The notes beneath the pieces were generated by a model, which did no database searches, had not been told where the DNA came from, and saw only the letters and a program-made list of their open reading frames with translations. The translations under genes were made by a program, and so were the position numbers. From positions 1 to 43,647 of the forward strand of contig MHAR01000010.1 of the NCBI GenBank assembly GCA_001803045.1: DNA of 43,647 nt, in the 5' to 3' direction. This stretch comes from Ignavibacteria bacterium RIFOXYB12_FULL_35_14. GTDB taxonomy: Bacteria > Bacteroidota > Ignavibacteria > Ignavibacteriales > Ignavibacteriaceae. Of this stretch, positions 2,357 to 12,152 are shown piece after piece. Every line of letters begins with the position of its first letter. Within the stretch, counting starts at the first letter, position 1.

Positions 2357-2383
2357 TAAATGGGGATATTAAGGAAGTATGTG

Positions 2384-3580
2384 ATGAAAGAATTAAGAAA
2401 TGAGTTCACCGAAGCGATTAAAAATTTGCTAAGCAGCTACATTGATGCAAACGAACTTAATAACTTCATTAACAAGTTTGAAGTAAACAAACCCGCAAAA
2501 AATAATTCAACCGAGATGATAAATAAGTTCTATGCTCAGCAATTAAAAATTGAATACAGTTTAGGTAGAGATCGTTTGCAAATAGACAGAACTATTACCT
2601 TTGCTCAAAAAACACTTCCAAAAGAAAAATATTTAGAGTTGTTAAAAAATCTTGCACAATTGTGCATTTCAAATGGTAAGCTGAGTTTTGCGTTCGAAAT
2701 ACTAAATAAGCTGCTAAAGCAAACCACAGAAGAAGAATTAAAAGCGGAAGCTTTTCTTCTTTTATCTGATGTTTTTGGTCGAAGCGCGGATTGGAATAAA
2801 TGTATTGAGGCTTTAGTAAAAGCTAATGATTTGTTTGTGAAAATTGGGAATAATCATGGAAGCTCAAAATGTGAAAACATGTTAGGAGTAATTCACGGTG
2901 AAAAAGGCAATCTGAAGAAAGCAAAAAAACATTTTGAGAATTGCTTGAAGCTTTTAAACAAAGGAGAAGAGAGAGAGCTTAGAGCATCAGTTGAGGCAAA
3001 TATAGGCATTATCCTAAATATGCAGGGAGATTATGGCAGTGCCGCAGATTATTTTGGAAAAGCTTTACGCTACTTTGAATCTGTTAAAAGTGACAGAAGA
3101 ATAGCCGAATTACGGCAGAACATCGGAATGATGTTCTTTAATAAAAATGAACAGGAAGCTGCTTTGGTGGAAATAGACAAGAGTATTGAAATTGCACTGG
3201 ATAATAAACTGATGCCTGTGCTTGCTCTCTCGTATTTAAGTAAAGCAAATATTCTTTTAGCACTTGATAATTGCAATGCAGCTTTAGCATTTGCAGATAA
3301 AGCGTTGGAAGTAAGTCATCTTATCGATGATAAGCTTTCCATCGCAGATATTTACCGAACTAAAAGTCTTATTGAAAGAAAGAAGAAAAATTTTGAGCGT
3401 GCAGAGAATTACTTGCAATCAAGTTTAAGAATGAATAAAAGCAGAGATAATAATCTTAATACTGCAGAGGCTAAAATGGAATTGGGTGAATTGTATGGCG
3501 AAATGAACCTAATATCTAATAAGGAAAAAATTTTAAAAGAATCACTTAAAGAGTATCAGCAAATAAATATCCTTAATTGA
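2384..3580 (+). CDS. TPR-repeat protein, copy 1
   Basis: A cytoplasmic all-helical protein of 398 residues built from about six or seven tetratricopeptide repeats. Typical TPR spacing of Gly/Ala/Leu/Tyr is visible, for instance in LGVIHGEKGNLKKAKKHFEN and in the segment beginning NIGIILNMQGDYGSAADYF. I set the start at the ATG at 2384 because AAGGAAG lies 6 bases upstream; the ATG at 2360 has no ribosome binding site. There is no signal peptide and no fused enzymatic or DNA-binding domain, so it is probably a protein-interaction scaffold. It is paralogous to the next gene along its whole length. The arrangement of MalT/Rap-type regulatory TPR proteins is an analogy only. Confidence 0.75.
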   Translation: MKELRNEFTEAIKNLLSSYIDANELNNFINKFEVNKPAKNNSTEMINKFYAQQLKIEYSLGRDRLQIDRTITFAQKTLPKEKYLELLKNLAQLCISNGKLSFAFEILNKLLKQTTEEELKAEAFLLLSDVFGRSADWNKCIEALVKANDLFVKIGNNHGSSKCENMLGVIHGEKGNLKKAKKHFENCLKLLNKGEERELRASVEANIGIILNMQGDYGSAADYFGKALRYFESVKSDRRIAELRQNIGMMFFNKNEQEAALVEIDKSIEIALDNKLMPVLALSYLSKANILLALDNCNAALAFADKALEVSHLIDDKLSIADIYRTKSLIERKKKNFERAENYLQSSLRMNKSRDNNLNTAEAKMELGELYGEMNLISNKEKILKESLKEYQQINILN

Positions 3581-3664
3581 GTAAGAAAGATAGAAAAAAT
3601 GTTAGAGACACCGAGCGTTTAATTATAAATGTTAAGCAGACTATTTAAAAGTTAGGATAAACTC

Positions 3665-4912
3665 ATGGGAAAAAATCAAAATGCTATTGTGGTTAAAGAC
3701 ATAGAAAAAATATTAAGCCATTTCCTTACTCAAAAAGATGTAGTAGAATTCACAACTGAGCTTGAGAAAAGAAAAGTTACAGAAACAAAAAAGGACCTCT
3801 CATTCAAAGCTAAAGATTCATATCAATTAAATGCAAATTTATCTCATGGGTCAAAAGAGAGAGAATTAATTCAAAGTATTTTTAGTTTTGCTGAGAATAG
3901 AATTTCGGAAATAGTTCATTATAAGATGATGCATGAACTCAGTCAATTAATGATTTCTAATGGTGAACTGAAACTTGCAGCAGAAATTTGTGAGGATCTT
4001 ATAATAAAAATAGGTGGTAATAATTGTTATTCTTCACTTGAAGCTGATTCATATTTAGCGCTTGCAAAAATTGCTTGGTCCCAGGCTTATTGGGAAGAGA
4101 GTGTTAGATATGTGCAAAAAAGTTATGAACTTTACAAAATAAGTGAAAATTTAAATGGTTATGCTAAGTGCGAGAATATGCTTGGAACAATTTTCGGGGA
4201 GCAGGGAGATGTTCTTGAAGCTTATAACCATTTTAAGAAAGGTTTAGAATACTTTTCAGATATAAATGATGATTCATTAAGAGCTATGTTCGAATTAAAT
4301 CTTGGTATTCTTCTTAACATCCAAGGTGAATATGCAAAGGCAATGTGGAATTTTAAAAACGCTCTTAATAAATTTATCCGATTGAAAGATACAAGTCGAA
4401 TAGCTCGAGTAAGACATAACCTGGGAATGATTTATACAAAAATTAAAGATTATCAGGCTGCAATTGAAGAATTTGATGCAAGCATTAGCATATCTACCGA
4501 GCGTGGTTATTTATCAAACTGTGCAATAGGGTATATCGGTAAAGCTTATATTTACACAAAATTAAACAATACCGATTTAGCGGAAGCATTTACAGATAAA
4601 GCTTTGGAGATTGCGAACAAAATCAATGATACACTGTCAATTGCCGATGTTTATAAAATTAAAGGAATGATTCAAAGTAATTTAGAAAACTATGAACTAT
4701 CAGCTGAAATGTTTGAGAATAGTTTGCGCCTTAACGAAGATTTTGAAAATAAAATGAATACAGCAGAAAGCAATCTTGAGCTTAGTGACATTTACTTTAA
4801 AACAGAAAGAAAAGAGGAAGCAGAAGTACTCAAGAATTCCGCAATAGGTTACTACAATTTAATTAAAGCCAAAAATTTTATCGATGAATTACTAGATGCA
4901 AATTCAAATTAA
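3665..4912 (+). CDS. TPR-repeat protein, copy 2
   Basis: A 415-residue TPR protein that aligns end to end with the preceding gene: both contain KCENMLG followed by GE.G, then LRA..E.N.GI.LN.QG, then the DKALE..., LSIAD.Y and NTAE blocks. The shared order of blocks shows tandem duplication followed by substantial divergence. The start at 3665 is supported by TAGGATAA a few bases upstream. It has no signal sequence, enzyme domain or transmembrane segment. The 84 bases between the two TPR genes hold nothing recognisable. Probably a protein-binding scaffold; partner unknown. Confidence 0.75.
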   Translation: MGKNQNAIVVKDIEKILSHFLTQKDVVEFTTELEKRKVTETKKDLSFKAKDSYQLNANLSHGSKERELIQSIFSFAENRISEIVHYKMMHELSQLMISNGELKLAAEICEDLIIKIGGNNCYSSLEADSYLALAKIAWSQAYWEESVRYVQKSYELYKISENLNGYAKCENMLGTIFGEQGDVLEAYNHFKKGLEYFSDINDDSLRAMFELNLGILLNIQGEYAKAMWNFKNALNKFIRLKDTSRIARVRHNLGMIYTKIKDYQAAIEEFDASISISTERGYLSNCAIGYIGKAYIYTKLNNTDLAEAFTDKALEIANKINDTLSIADVYKIKGMIQSNLENYELSAEMFENSLRLNEDFENKMNTAESNLELSDIYFKTERKEEAEVLKNSAIGYYNLIKAKNFIDELLDANSN

Positions 4913-6798: not shown

Positions 6799-9669
6799 TT
6801 AATTGATCTGAAGCTGGGATAAATAATTTGCAAACATTTGCTGACCAATGTATATGATTCTCTCATTTGAATCAATAGAAACTTGCTTAAGTATTTCTTC
6901 TGAGCAAATAACAAATAACCGATTATTATTTTTTAACCCTTCCCTGATAAAAGTTTTAATAGGTTCTGCATCGTTAGCTTTAAATGGCAGACATAAAATT
7001 GCAATTTTAATTTCATTGAATCCCTTATTTGCCATTCCGTAAATTGTTATTTCCTCATGCAGCATATCCGGTTTTAAAATAAGATTCTTGTAGCCAAATT
7101 TTGTAAACAAGACTTTAGTCTTATGTCCAATTTCTTCAATTGAAGCTTCTGAAAGATCATTCATAATTGTTTCTTTGTCGGGTTTCAAGCTATTCCGCGG
7201 TTTTTGATGTTCAATGCCAAGAATATCCAGCCAATCTTCGTTGCTAATTAAGCTGTAGAGGGTTTCGTTCGGAAGGAATTCGATAAGATTTTTAATCAGC
7301 AAACCTTTGTTCTGAAGCGTTTCTCTTATGCTAATTTCTACAGAGTTGCTACTGAAATAGTTAATTACATTTACACTTTCCATTAAATGATTTAGATCAT
7401 AAGCGTTAAATGGCTTATCTTCATACTGCCATTGTGTATTAGGATTCCACCATTGATCAAAATGTATTAAATATGATGAATCGGGAATTTTCACCTTAAC
7501 ACTTGCAGCAGTAAGTCCTGCAAGCATTACACTAATTTTGCTTTCTTTTTTGAACGAATTTGCTGAATTTTCAAGTTCCTTCAATGACATTCCCGATTGG
7601 TAAAGGACATATCGTATTTGATTATGTTTTAGCAGGTGCTCAATCTTCTGTATTCCTTGCTTATCGTATTGTGAGAAAATTATACTCTTTTGACCGCTCG
7701 CTATTATTGAGTCAAGCTGATCTAGTAATAGTTCTGACTTTGGGCTTGATTCTTTATGCGTTGAGAAATTTCCTAATTGCTTTATCTGGTGAATTAACGT
7801 AAAAATATTTGATTGAATAATAAAGGGATTACCGCCTTTGACCAGATCGAGTATTCGTTTTCGACCTTGAAATATTGTGTTTTCAAATTCCTGCTTTTGT
7901 TCATCATCAAGTTCATGCCAATAATCATTTCGAATTAGGGATGGAAGTTCGTTACTTAAAGTATGCTTCGTTCTGTTCAATGAACCATCTAAAGTTTCAA
8001 AACCAACGAGATGTTTCTTTATTTTGGGAATTAATCTTTCCTCAATGAGTTGGGAAGGCAAGCTGCTAAGAATCCATCGATATTTAGATGCCGGAAAATT
8101 AAATAGTTGGTCGGGTTGGATTTCGTTATTTAACAGGTATTGTGCTTCGTCAAATATTAAGCATTCAATATTTTTATTAAAAGATTCTTTTGTGGAATCC
8201 CCTGATAACTCGAGAAGTGTTTTATAGTTGATTATAAAAATTTTGGCCTTCCGACAGGATGCTGCGATATTCTCATTGTTTAGATCTTTTATCGTTACAA
8301 ATTGAAGCTCAGGATCCAAATTATAAATTTGATTTTCCCATCCTTCGGATTTATTTATATGTTCACTTACTATTTTATTTCCAATATGCGAATCTGGACA
8401 AACAATTAATGCATTTTTAATTATTCCTTGTTTAATAGCAGAATGTAATGCATAAATTGTTTGAGCTTTTTTATCTATTCCTATTTCATCGGATAGTAAT
8501 GCAGTTCGATTGGTGAGTAGATGTTTAATTCCTTCTTTTTGATAAACAAGAAGGTTTTTATTGCTGGATTCCACCTCTTCCAGAATAATTGTCTTAACTT
8601 TTATTTCAGATTTTTCCTGCTCAGGTACATAAGTTTCATTTTTATTCTTAGCTTTTTGAATTGTTCTTTTTGGTATTTCACTTTCTACCGGTAATAGCTG
8701 GCTAAGTATTCCAGGGTTGATAATTTTTAATTTCGGTAAATATTCCACAAACAGGTTTTTCCCACTTTCCTTGTTTTTTTCTAATAAGCCAAACTTGAGC
8801 TGTTTTTGCTTTGCCTCTTTTGTGTGATGATTTTTAAGATGATATAGTGGTACCTCTGTCTTTTCTAATCGAGCCAATTTCACGCGGTAATTTTTTGGTT
8901 TTTGATTAAGTAAATCTATCGGAATTTCCGGGATTATTTTTGTGCCAGACTTTTGTAAGGTTTCTTTAATTTCTTCGAGAGTAATTACAGGAATATTTTT
9001 TAGTGAGGGTTTTTTCTCAAGTTTATTGAATGCAATTGCCAGATATTTTTTATTTGTTTTATTTCGTAATAAACTAAAGTTAATAATTTTGTCAGATGGT
9101 AAAGTAGAAGGCATATTTATCTTGTGATCAGAATACGCCGGTATATTTATGAAGCAATCGAGTTTGAAATTATCAGCTTTTTGTATGTCGGTTAAATGAG
9201 TCTTAACTGTAACTTGTAAGGGCGAAAGTTCTTTCGAAATAGACTTTGGGATGAGACTATTGCTTGATTCTTCATTGTCTTTTTCAACTCCAAAGAATAA
9301 TTCTTTTTCTTTAGAAGAAAAGGATGAAGAAAAAAGTAATCTAGATGTGTCTGATTCTAAAATACTTATTTTATGCTGATAAGGCTTTGGAAAGGAGAAA
9401 AAGATTTTAAATGTTTTTTTCTTTTTGGCGACAACATTTTTTATTTCTTCCGAAACTTTGAACTTGGTGAGAGAGAATTTTTTAACCTGAAAGAGAGTTG
9501 GACCGCTAAATTCCTTAAAGTCTTCTACTTTTTTAATATCAATGCGCGGCTTGGGAAATCGTTCCAAGTATATTTGTGGTTCTTTAAGCCACTTATTCCA
9601 CTCAAATTGTTCCGGATCCTCGACGTTTGAAATAACTTCGGCAACAGACTTTCGGATTTTTTTGTACAT
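6799..9669 (-). CDS. SNF2-like protein with degenerate ATPase motifs and C-terminal Mrr-like domain
   Basis: 956 residues. Residues 1-360 are Lys-rich and unrecognised. Residues 370-770 follow the SNF2 helicase order: YQKEGI at 376 (SNF2 N-terminal motif), SDEIGIDKKAQT at 393 in place of ADEMGLGKT, FDEAQ at 506 (Walker B), LSSLP at 534 (motif III), FDQWWNP at 737. Key residues are changed. The P-loop GKT is DKK at 399-401. The usual GGxGLNL of motif V reads ASVKVKI. The two motif VI arginines are Lys752 and Asn755. Residues 850-950 resemble an Mrr-type restriction-endonuclease fold (FGYKNL, then the LFVICS strand) but lack a clear D...QxK centre. The frame is intact over 2.9 kb, so this looks like a maintained protein, perhaps a DNA-binding pseudo-ATPase. 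It starts 6 bases after the 177-aa gene, so the two are co-transcribed. Confidence 0.75.
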   Translation of the reverse strand: MYKKIRKSVAEVISNVEDPEQFEWNKWLKEPQIYLERFPKPRIDIKKVEDFKEFSGPTLFQVKKFSLTKFKVSEEIKNVVAKKKKTFKIFFSFPKPYQHKISILESDTSRLLFSSSFSSKEKELFFGVEKDNEESSNSLIPKSISKELSPLQVTVKTHLTDIQKADNFKLDCFINIPAYSDHKINMPSTLPSDKIINFSLLRNKTNKKYLAIAFNKLEKKPSLKNIPVITLEEIKETLQKSGTKIIPEIPIDLLNQKPKNYRVKLARLEKTEVPLYHLKNHHTKEAKQKQLKFGLLEKNKESGKNLFVEYLPKLKIINPGILSQLLPVESEIPKRTIQKAKNKNETYVPEQEKSEIKVKTIILEEVESSNKNLLVYQKEGIKHLLTNRTALLSDEIGIDKKAQTIYALHSAIKQGIIKNALIVCPDSHIGNKIVSEHINKSEGWENQIYNLDPELQFVTIKDLNNENIAASCRKAKIFIINYKTLLELSGDSTKESFNKNIECLIFDEAQYLLNNEIQPDQLFNFPASKYRWILSSLPSQLIEERLIPKIKKHLVGFETLDGSLNRTKHTLSNELPSLIRNDYWHELDDEQKQEFENTIFQGRKRILDLVKGGNPFIIQSNIFTLIHQIKQLGNFSTHKESSPKSELLLDQLDSIIASGQKSIIFSQYDKQGIQKIEHLLKHNQIRYVLYQSGMSLKELENSANSFKKESKISVMLAGLTAASVKVKIPDSSYLIHFDQWWNPNTQWQYEDKPFNAYDLNHLMESVNVINYFSSNSVEISIRETLQNKGLLIKNLIEFLPNETLYSLISNEDWLDILGIEHQKPRNSLKPDKETIMNDLSEASIEEIGHKTKVLFTKFGYKNLILKPDMLHEEITIYGMANKGFNEIKIAILCLPFKANDAEPIKTFIREGLKNNNRLFVICSEEILKQVSIDSNERIIYIGQQMFANYLSQLQIN

Positions 9670-9675
9670 CTGAAC

Positions 9676-10209
9676 TTATTCATTGGTTTTCTGAAGATGA
9701 ACTTGCTCACAGGCTACTCTTAATCTGCTAAACGGTTCTATTAAGTTTCTCCTCTCGGATATTGAGTTTAACAGGTCTCTAATCTGGGGAAGTTCAGATT
9801 CATATTTAGGAGATGTTTGTATGAAAACTTTTTGACCATTGCCTTTGTAGGATTTTAGTTCTTCAACTCCTTTTTGAGGGGCAGACAGGTTTTCATCTTG
9901 CGAAAATATTTGGATTACTCTGATTCCCTGCTTAATGTTAGCCCCTAAAAACAATGGATCTTTTACAAGAATTAAATCGAGTTCTTCATTTAAAGCCGTA
10001 ATCAATGGCAAAGATATAAGTTCAACAAGTACATGTTCAAGCAGCACATCTCCATAAAGTGTTTTTTGAAAATTGGTAGTTTTAATAGGAGCAGTAACTC
10101 TAAACTCTAATGGTTTTGTTTCACCATCGGTAACTAGAATAGCACCCATAATGCCGCTGGTTTCATCTAATGATAAACTTTCTAAAAATCCAATTTTTGC
10201 AAGATTCAT
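9676..10209 (-). CDS. conserved protein of unknown function, partner of the SNF2-like gene
   Basis: 177 residues, no signal peptide or membrane segment. The N-terminal half has the pattern LDETSGIMGAILVTD, then KPLEFRVTAPIKTTNFQK.LYG and a VELISLPLI block. From memory this pattern recurs in uncharacterised proteins of several phyla, some encoded beside SNF2-type ATPases; I cannot verify this here. The C-terminal half is predicted alpha/beta with charged helices. The gene is upstream in a tight operon (6-base gap) with the SNF2-like gene, which suggests joint function, perhaps as a substrate-recognition or DNA-binding partner. That role is inference. Confidence 0.6.
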   Translation of the reverse strand: MNLAKIGFLESLSLDETSGIMGAILVTDGETKPLEFRVTAPIKTTNFQKTLYGDVLLEHVLVELISLPLITALNEELDLILVKDPLFLGANIKQGIRVIQIFSQDENLSAPQKGVEELKSYKGNGQKVFIQTSPKYESELPQIRDLLNSISERRNLIEPFSRLRVACEQVHLQKTNE

Positions 10210-10721: not shown

Positions 10722-12152
10722 GTGCAATTGACTCACAAAATATTTTTTTTAGCTATTCTCCCAATTGTGTTTGCGCTGCCACAGAAAAAAAATAATTTAC
10801 AAGTTCATAATTTTTCAGGAACTGCCCCAATTTCTGTAAGCGGTATTTTTACTTTGGGGTTAAGTGATTACAGCAATGGAAAAATTGGTTTTGGTGCTAT
10901 CGGTATGATAGAATATTTCATTCCGGCAAAATCACGTACAATTTTTGGATTGAGATTTTTATTCGGCGGACAAACAGTCAATGGTGAAGATCAATTTAAA
11001 GAAGCACCGGAATTTATAACCGATATGTACATCTTAGGCGGTGGATTAACCGTTGGATATTCCTTTCAGAATGAATTCTTTCCTTATGTTTATGCGGGGG
11101 TTTCAAATCTGTGGTTTAGTCCAAAAGATCAAAATGGTAAAAGATTAACAAATAACAGTTTGGGAGCATACTCCCGTTCCACAATTGCCTATGATGCAGA
11201 AGTCGGTTCTCGTATAGCGTTGCAAGAAAACTTAAGTTTGTTTTTTGGTATTGGGGCTCATTTTGTACAAACTGATAATTTTGATGATATCAGTGCGGGA
11301 AATAGTAACGATTTTTACTATTCAGGTAGAATTGGTGTTTCCCTATCATTGTTTGGAGACAAGGATTCTGACGGCGATGGTATTTGGGATTCCGACGATG
11401 CTTGCCCTTCCAATCCTGAGGATTATGACGGGTTTCAAGATGAGGACGGTTGCCCTGATTATGACAATGATAAAGATAAGGTATTGGATGAAATAGATAA
11501 ATGTCCAAATGATCCTGAGGATAGAGATGGATTCCAGGATGATGATGGCTGCCCTGATTTAGATAATGATGGAGATGGAATACCGGATACTAAAGATAAA
11601 TGTCCAGATCAACCGGAAAACTTCAATGGATTTGAAGATGAAGATGGCTGCCCGGATATATTAGATAATACTAAGCGTTTATTGGATAATGATAATGATG
11701 GCATTCTAAATTATCTTGATAAATGTCCGGATCAAGCAGAAACATTTAACGGATTTCAGGATGAGGACGGTTGTCCGGACTCAATAGCAGTTGGTGATAC
11801 GGTTTCTGTAAAAGAAATAACTCTTGAGGGAAATAATTTATTCGGTTGGCGCAGTTCTGAAATTAAACCAACAGCATATGAAGAACTTGATAAGACTGCC
11901 GAATTTTTAATGAATGACCCATTCATTAAATGGGCTGTTGAAGGTTATACTGATAATAATGGTATCCCAGATTCTCTTAAGGCATTATCGCTGGAAAGAG
12001 CAAAATCGGTTGTTCGATATTTGATTAACACTGGTCTGCCATCATTCATGTTTAGAGTTTACGGCAAGGGAGGCGAATCACCAATTACCGATAATAATAC
12101 TTTGGAAGGAAGACTTAAGAATAATAGGATTGTAATCAGACGATTAGATTAA
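10722..12152 (+). CDS. OmpA-family outer-membrane protein with thrombospondin type-3 repeats
   Basis: 476 residues: signal peptide (HKIFFLAILPIVFA), an eight-strand-type beta-barrel region (about 30-205), four thrombospondin type-3 calcium-binding repeats (about 212-360, each with DxDxDG-type loops and a DGCPD ending), then an OmpA C-terminal peptidoglycan-binding domain (about 365-476). The last keeps VEGYTDNNG, LSLERAKSV and the terminal NNRIVIRRL, including the Asp and Arg that bind diaminopimelate in OmpA. It should tie the outer membrane to the wall. The start is GTG at 10722 (weak GGAT ribosome site) or TTG at 10728; no ATG fits the signal peptide. The repeat type is frequent in Bacteroidetes/Chlorobi porins. 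Confidence 0.85.
   Translation: MQLTHKIFFLAILPIVFALPQKKNNLQVHNFSGTAPISVSGIFTLGLSDYSNGKIGFGAIGMIEYFIPAKSRTIFGLRFLFGGQTVNGEDQFKEAPEFITDMYILGGGLTVGYSFQNEFFPYVYAGVSNLWFSPKDQNGKRLTNNSLGAYSRSTIAYDAEVGSRIALQENLSLFFGIGAHFVQTDNFDDISAGNSNDFYYSGRIGVSLSLFGDKDSDGDGIWDSDDACPSNPEDYDGFQDEDGCPDYDNDKDKVLDEIDKCPNDPEDRDGFQDDDGCPDLDNDGDGIPDTKDKCPDQPENFNGFEDEDGCPDILDNTKRLLDNDNDGILNYLDKCPDQAETFNGFQDEDGCPDSIAVGDTVSVKEITLEGNNLFGWRSSEIKPTAYEELDKTAEFLMNDPFIKWAVEGYTDNNGIPDSLKALSLERAKSVVRYLINTGLPSFMFRVYGKGGESPITDNNTLEGRLKNNRIVIRRLD

Follow-up and report, generated by a model that had tools for sequence, protein, structure and literature searches.

The contig MHAR01000010.1 of Ignavibacteria bacterium RIFOXYB12_FULL_35_14, analysed at its full length of 43,647 nucleotides and here called the window, contains a two-gene unit that raises the question of what a SNF2-like protein can be kept for once its catalytic residues have gone. 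The first gene (9676..10209) codes for a partner protein of 177 amino acids with a predicted Endonuclease V (EndoV)/PIWI-like RNase H fold, and the second (6799..9669) for a SNF2-like pseudo-ATPase of 956 amino acids; both have ATG starts and open frames, are separated by a 6-base gap (9670–9675), and are located on the minus strand, as are all features of the two proteins given below. These coordinates, lengths and gap agree exactly with a preliminary description of the locus. As judged from homologous sequences, the pair is a unit with both proteins under purifying selection in relatives, and we favour, by slightly more than an even judgement, the interpretation that it is a non-enzymatic complex descended from an active SNF2-nuclease module, in which the dead SNF2 core is a scaffold and the partner is the functional centre.

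The SNF2-like protein matches the Pfam profiles SNF2-rel_dom (1e-10, residues 376–540) and Helicase_C (2.9e-10, residues 650–748) over their cut-offs, as the preliminary description had anticipated, and this SNF2_N and Helicase_C homology, together with the two-lobe core fold of the predicted model, places it in the SNF2 family of helicase superfamily 2 (SF2). The core (residues 362–819; 7213..8586) is organized as two RecA-like lobes, and the predicted fold of residues 360–818 superposes on 1z6a over 411 residues (Z 23.1, root-mean-square deviation [rmsd] 3.1), with ZorD apo (PDB 8qy7) also among its structural neighbours (Z 18.7); the model as a whole has a mean predicted local distance difference test score (pLDDT) of 62, and its N-terminal third is unmodelled. 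Because the core superposes in this way, an alignment restoring the catalytic motifs at other positions, a weakness that the preliminary description had foreseen for itself, is unlikely.

No intact P-loop, motif III, motif V or motif VI is present in the window protein. The P-loop remnant is DKKAQ (residues 399–403; 8461..8475), lying opposite G-K-T-x-Q; the earlier claim that GKT is replaced by DKK at 399–401 holds for the glycine and the threonine, but the lysine itself (K400) is present. When compared by phmmer with the SNF2 protein of S. solfataricus (1z63), a first aligned stretch, weak alone (i-Evalue 0.28), sets changed residues opposite GLGKT, and a second (2.6e-7) sets them opposite AGGFG and DRVYR, bearing out the reported loss of the motif V glycines. 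Motif VI is reduced to EDKPFN (residues 750–755; 7405..7422) with both arginines replaced, residue numbering giving Lys752 and Asn755 as first described, and Walker B is retained as FDEAQ (residues 506–510; 8140..8154), again as described. Two features of an active ATPase, Walker A GKT/S (here DKK) and the motif VI arginines (here K752 and N755), are therefore missing in the window. The C-terminal domain (approximately residues 832–956; 6802..7176) is Mrr-like with neither the catalytic D nor Q-x-K kept, in accordance with the earlier view of an Mrr-like fold lacking a catalytic centre; it has no match to Mrr_cat (PF04471) at E ≤ 1, and the Mrr likeness is visible only through two relatives that match this profile over cut-off (L054, 3e-6; L048, 5e-5).

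The pseudo-ATPase reading is supported, and it extends from the window copy to the Ignavibacteria family at large. Motifs were counted in 38 Ignavibacteria-type rows (the window and loci L059–L095, with gaps set aside and with whatever aligned of L063, L067, L071 and L074 included, the last scored as a lost P-loop), and in an outgroup of four SNF2s (L096–L099), all four of which have intact motifs. Among the Ignavibacteria-type rows the second glycine of motif V is never kept (0/34), the motif III glycine is kept in 3/35, and the motif VI arginines in 4/34 (Arg1) and 1/34 (Arg2); GKT/S is kept in 11/36, the P-loop lysine in 31/36, and Walker B DE in 18/34, including the window. The preliminary description had proposed asking whether relatives keep these residues, and on the GKT/S and motif VI counts Ignavibacteria relatives mostly do not. 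The Mrr Q and K positions (reference L099) are kept in 0/31 rows, and the column of the catalytic D has D in 8/31 rows and T in the window, in a region where the alignment is weak. Residues D738, W741 and P743 of the sequence HFDQWWNP (residues 736–743; 7441..7464) are invariant in 34/34 rows, and this D-x-x-W-x-P block is structural. The normal predicted SNF2 fold and the losses of catalytic motifs, taken together, mean that selection has kept the SNF2 scaffold while its chemistry was let go.

The counts also give an order to the losses. Virtually every Ignavibacteria-type copy lacks motifs V and VI, whereas the cousins have them intact, and the simplest explanation is a loss in the common (Ignavibacteriales) ancestor. 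The sequences suggest that the P-loop was lost later, in more than one lineage; there are four changes of P-loop state in a tree built by a quick method, with support only from the Shimodaira-Hasegawa-like approximate likelihood ratio test (SH-aLRT), and at least two of these are forced by well-supported branches. This tree omits L063, L067 and L071, which run off their contigs, and L074, whose frame is interrupted; L060 is included without a P-loop state. A cryptic ATPase, still binding ATP and slowly hydrolysing it with other residues, would be consistent with Walker B DE in the window and about half of the rows and with the frequent P-loop lysine, but we regard it as decidedly improbable, given that essentially all rows, through their losses in motifs V and VI, lack the second half of the active site and that GKT/S is not intact in 25/36.

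Both genes evolve under constraint. In pairs of relatives with finite synonymous divergence (dS), the ratio of nonsynonymous to synonymous divergence (dN/dS, omega) is 0.071–0.229 for the SNF2-like gene and 0.018–0.066 for the partner; pairs with infinite dS yield no omega. By region, it is 0.11–0.27 in the disordered N-terminus and 0.04–0.11 in the dead core in five relative pairs, and 0.04–0.15 in the dead C-terminal nuclease domain in the four of these pairs with finite dS. Frames that are not cut by contig ends in L059–L099 are long, at 679–1164 codons, with the exception of L074. A decaying gene kept by chance could account for two eroded copies, L074 with its interrupted frame and L060, which has no P-loop region, but decay is disfavoured because omega is low in the relatives, the dead core included, and because the uncut frames are otherwise long; we give it hardly any weight. 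The preliminary description was correct that the open frame is not decaying, the dN/dS check that it proposed having returned low values in relatives, and its word 'relic' fails if meant as decay (omega 0.07–0.23). It had also considered that orthologues might keep intact motifs with this copy drifting under relaxed selection; intact SNF2s do exist outside the order, but none is found within it, and the relatives show no relaxed selection.

The two proteins differ greatly in pace. Compared with a relative from the same genus, the window shows 87% identity in the partner, 54% in the SNF2-like protein and 54–66% in four syntenic neighbours, and this comparison also lists members of repeated families at 28–44%; outside the genus, the SNF2-like protein falls to 24–34% identity (longest aligned stretch) and the partner to 50–65%. 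The N-terminal region of the SNF2-like protein (residues 1–358; 8596..9669) is predicted to be mostly disordered (pLDDT <50 over 1–230 and 242–358) and contains a K-T-x-x-x-F-F motif (9397–9417). This fast-evolving region opens with a basic amphipathic segment followed by W-L-K/R-x-P, conserved in the window and most relatives, and this conserved start is likely to be a docking peptide.

What, then, is the slowly evolving partner? Searches of Pfam (PF04493 included) and NCBIfam at E ≤ 1, and of PADLOC and PHROGs at the cut-offs applied there, give no match, and a sequence profile of the partner retrieves no convincing solved structure (best E 1.7). Its AlphaFold2 model (pLDDT 85, from 17 sequences) has a beta-beta-beta-alpha-beta-alpha-beta arrangement, with B. 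subtilis Endonuclease V 3ga2 as the best structural neighbour (Z 13.9, rmsd 3.2, 168 residues) and Argonaute PIWI domains lower (Z approximately 10); Foldseek scores the model against Endonuclease V at 3.4e-5, and the protein is accordingly predicted to have the Endonuclease V fold. RNase H-fold nucleases have an Asp on the first strand, and the EndoV catalytic residues are this Asp, a Glu at a helix start and an Asp after strand 4. Residue 10 of the partner, on the first strand, is Glu in 35/38, Asp in 1/38 and Gly in 2/38 Ignavibacteria-type rows, and Gly or Ala in 4/4 outgroup rows, so that among the rows compared an acidic residue at this position occurs only in the Ignavibacteria type. 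The invariant residues include D28, E35, E63 and D84 (the last in 42/42 rows), as well as Q48 (42/42), which lies at a helix start and may correspond to the EndoV catalytic Glu site.

These acidic invariants, and the acidic residue 10 in 36/38 rows, are what might be expected if the partner were itself an enzyme in Ignavibacteria, a nuclease or a nucleotide-binding protein that the SNF2-like protein merely positions. We think this rather improbable: hhalign with E. coli EndoV (nfi) is not significant (prob 2%), position 10 is Gly in two rows, and an invariant Gln occupies the presumptive catalytic-Glu site.

The pair is kept as a unit. A search of 59 relatives recovers the partner at E <1e-50 in 17 genomes and at E up to 1 in 25, the eight further matches being weak (best E 0.039). 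The SNF2-like gene directly follows the partner on the same strand in 17/17 genomes holding the pair (the contig ends within the second gene in G015 and G036), and the two are also together in all 41 loci L059–L099, answering positively the earlier question of whether the small gene is always adjacent; the gap is between −37 and 28 nucleotides in 40 of these 41 loci, and 218 in L097. The loci derive from a pattern scan of one genome per species over 84,980 species, which gave 42: 37 of the Ignavibacteria type and five others. The former comprise 22 named Ignavibacteria or kin, four Melioribacter-like, nine Bacteroidetes/Bacteroidota, one unplaced, and one labelled Gammaproteobacteria; twelve of L059–L095 repeat contigs of the 17 genomes (L059, L063, L064, L068, L071, L072, L073, L080, L084, L085, L093 and L094), and L059 is the same contig as G001/L041. 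Within the window's phylum the partner is present in 10/395 sampled genomes, the window's own included. The contig labelled as a Gammaproteobacteria metagenome-assembled genome (MAG) is L074, with its Ignavibacteria-type pair and interrupted SNF2-like frame, and is probably mis-binned. In the broken copy of Nostoc mirabile (L100, 8097–8648), which was excluded from the frame, identity and motif counts, the partner is reduced to its first half, which continues directly into a SNF2 protein remnant.

The surroundings of the pair are also recurrent. A feoB gene lies divergently upstream in 19/45 loci (e.g. L043, 1112–6470), and fur and metallo-hydrolase genes are found in 16 loci each (families named from L043); in eight of the feoB loci a histidine-kinase-family gene (GAF, HisKA and HATPase in L043) is located between feoB and the pair. 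In the window the pair adjoins an OmpA-family gene instead of feoB, as in the sister genome. Gene maps of this kind indicate that many species have the pair at a single, fixed chromosomal position. A functional link to iron, considered on account of feoB and fur, was dropped, and these genes are treated as a map position: feoB of the window genome is on another contig, and FeoB of the same kind occurs in genomes without the pair. A mobile defence cassette at the present day was likewise rejected, given the fixed neighbours in many species, the absence of the partner from 72,556 plasmid records (two queries), and the lack of confirmed viral copies, 21 stretches of IMG/VR viral contigs having matched the partner pattern with none confirmed.

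Evidence for where the pair came from is provided by cousins in which the same partner precedes a SNF2 with intact motifs: L096 (Symplocastrum), L097 (Nostoc), L098 and L099 (MAGs of Acidobacteria and Desulfobacteraceae, respectively) and L112/L135 (G774, a genome of the Acidobacteria phylum). The L135 protein has GTGKT, DEAQ, TGTP, TGGVG and EDRVHRHG, with K replacing the final Q of motif VI; its Mrr part has GGID ... QCK. The C-termini vary: L099 and L135 have Mrr_cat (4.1e-18 and 2.6e-21), L097 has PNP_UDP_1 (3.2e-17), L096 has an extension without an assigned domain, and L098 has no C-terminal domain. Because the Mrr domain is present in L099, L135 and, in eroded form, Ignavibacteria, SNF2-Mrr is likely to be the ancestral form. 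Genes for AbiEi and a methyl-directed restriction enzyme of type IV lie near L099, those for an HNH endonuclease and an Mrr-type enzyme adjoin L098, and a PIN-domain gene is near L097 and L135. The exchange of effector domains and these restriction and abortive-infection neighbours suggest, but do not prove, that the ancestral module acted against mobile elements. The module is rare in phylum samples: 4/339 genomes for the phylum of Nostoc, of which three are weak matches from the wider family, and 1/297 for that of L099. The proposal that the pair derives from a defence system is thus plausible, supported by the intact cousins with Mrr or PNP and by the two near restriction or abortive-infection genes, and the alternative of a chromatin-like origin finds no evidence, closeness to eukaryotic remodellers being that of the shared SNF2 fold only.

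It follows to ask whether the Ignavibacteria pair is still directed against mobile elements, the dead SNF2-Mrr protein and its EndoV/PIWI-fold partner sensing or blocking invading DNA by binding alone, as has been proposed elsewhere for PIWI proteins without catalysis and for inactive helicase domains. The nuclease and PNP domains of the cousins and the location of two of them near defence genes are consistent with this, as is the fast evolution of the SNF2-like protein, which is frequent in conflict sensors. However, the pair retains no effector, it has a fixed chromosomal place in many species without plasmid or confirmed viral copies, and ten window neighbours have no convincing PADLOC match (only weak TPR and MotB/OmpA-domain scores); we consider continued defence by binding unlikely, though the least unlikely of the four alternatives to a non-enzymatic complex.

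For the favoured non-enzymatic complex, we envisage the following course. In the ancestral module, which was probably an anti-mobile-element effector, foreign nucleic acid would have been recognised by the EndoV/PIWI-fold partner with the SNF2 motor, and then either cut by Mrr or, with PNP, countered by an attack on nucleosides. Catalysis would have been lost in the Ignavibacteriales ancestor, with the pair persisting as a non-enzymatic complex; the dead SNF2 core and Mrr-like domain may now bind double-stranded DNA, or DNA or protein, as a scaffold, and the disordered N-terminal tail with its basic amphipathic start may dock on the partner or on a surface. The slowly evolving partner would supply the conserved function, as the centre of a regulatory or structural complex. 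More tentatively, and with clearly less than even confidence, we propose that an undescribed anti-mobile-element system, composed of the partner, SNF2 and an exchangeable C-terminal Mrr or PNP domain, has turned into a fully non-enzymatic DNA-binding machine with a structural or regulatory task in the Ignavibacteriales, with the partner decisive.

Several observations weigh against this account. The retained P-loop lysine (31/36) and GKT/S (11/36) make ATP binding without hydrolysis possible in some members. The omega values come from relatives only, dS between the SNF2-like genes of the window and L059 being saturated. The partner tree breaks the families f1 and f2 (four and three changes), so vertical inheritance is not shown by the tree, although the tree is unresolved at its base and no more than one change per family is forced by well-supported branches. 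The intact outgroup consists of five loci, and the defence role rests on their domains and on partly scanned neighbours (L097–L099 and L135). Finally, a wider family of partners occurs without SNF2, near FHA or GGDEF genes, in a setting unlike defence. Partner matches are found in 26/297 genomes of the Acidobacteria phylum, 24 of them weak (E 8e-22 to 3.6e-13), and in six weak loci with 1.5 kb flanks (L113, L114, L115, L119, L124 and L130) there is a SNF2 in none. L113 has a distant partner, then a 259-amino-acid protein, then FHA-GGDEF (by Pfam); L139 has the same order followed by a gene that is kinase-like by eye, and FHA-like stretches, seen by eye only, follow the partner in L115, L119, L124 and L130. 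L108–L110 are taken as wider-family members only. The partner may therefore have been regulatory at base, with SNF2 joining it later as an effector.

One of the closest known systems is ZorD of Zorya type I, in which a SNF2 core is followed by an Mrr-like nuclease as in the intact cousins L099 and L135; ZorD, followed by DpdE, is the best PADLOC score of the SNF2s of L096–L099 and L135, mainly through the helicase part. The window protein matches through the helicase part only, with the DpdE model slightly ahead of ZorD, and the pair differs from Zorya in its dead motifs and in having a partner of another fold. PADLOC finds no ZorA or ZorC among the ten window neighbours between 67 and 15212; the OmpA-family gene (10722–12152) scores weakly with ZorB3 (6e-7) through its MotB/OmpA domain. 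DpdE of the 7-deazaguanine system and DrmD of DISARM share SNF2 core similarity (PADLOC scores of the window's helicase core only), and no further gene of either system is present among the ten neighbours scanned. Elsewhere in the window are two small paralogues without a Pfam match (1086–2356), related to five tandem copies in the sister genome (L041, 2567–6525), and two neighbouring TPR proteins (406 and 415 amino acids; 2360–4912) that resemble a tandem duplicate.

Inactive SNF2 lobes have been described before. The inactive SWI2/SNF2 second lobe of DndH is predicted to bind DNA (PMC10853773) and an inactive SNF2 C-lobe in PglZ to recognise nucleic acid or invaders (PMC12839542); both domains are SNF2-derived without ATP-binding residues, and that of DndH also without arginine-finger residues. 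In these cases only the second lobe is inactive, in an otherwise active system, whereas in the window both lobes and the nuclease are dead and the pair stands alone. For the partner, which shares its predicted fold with the Endonuclease V/PIWI branch although the first-strand Asp is absent in the window, the inactivated RNase H folds of TALON (PMC12458937) and inactive PIWI modules (PMC3702460) offer parallels. Searches of open-licence PubMed Central (PMC) literature, which did not extend to a paper on a Halomonas nuclease-Snf2 fusion, showed no description of the pair and no parallel in which a SNF2-nuclease that is dead throughout is joined by a partner of EndoV fold.

The locus is thus a natural case of a helicase-nuclease that lost both activities and stayed under selection across many genera, with a suggested order of losses in which motifs V and VI went first and the P-loop later. 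The partner represents a family that neither Pfam and NCBIfam nor PADLOC and PHROGs match, and the intact cousins are testable anti-phage candidates; from the Ignavibacteria pair itself one can learn what use a SNF2 protein has when ATP plays no part.

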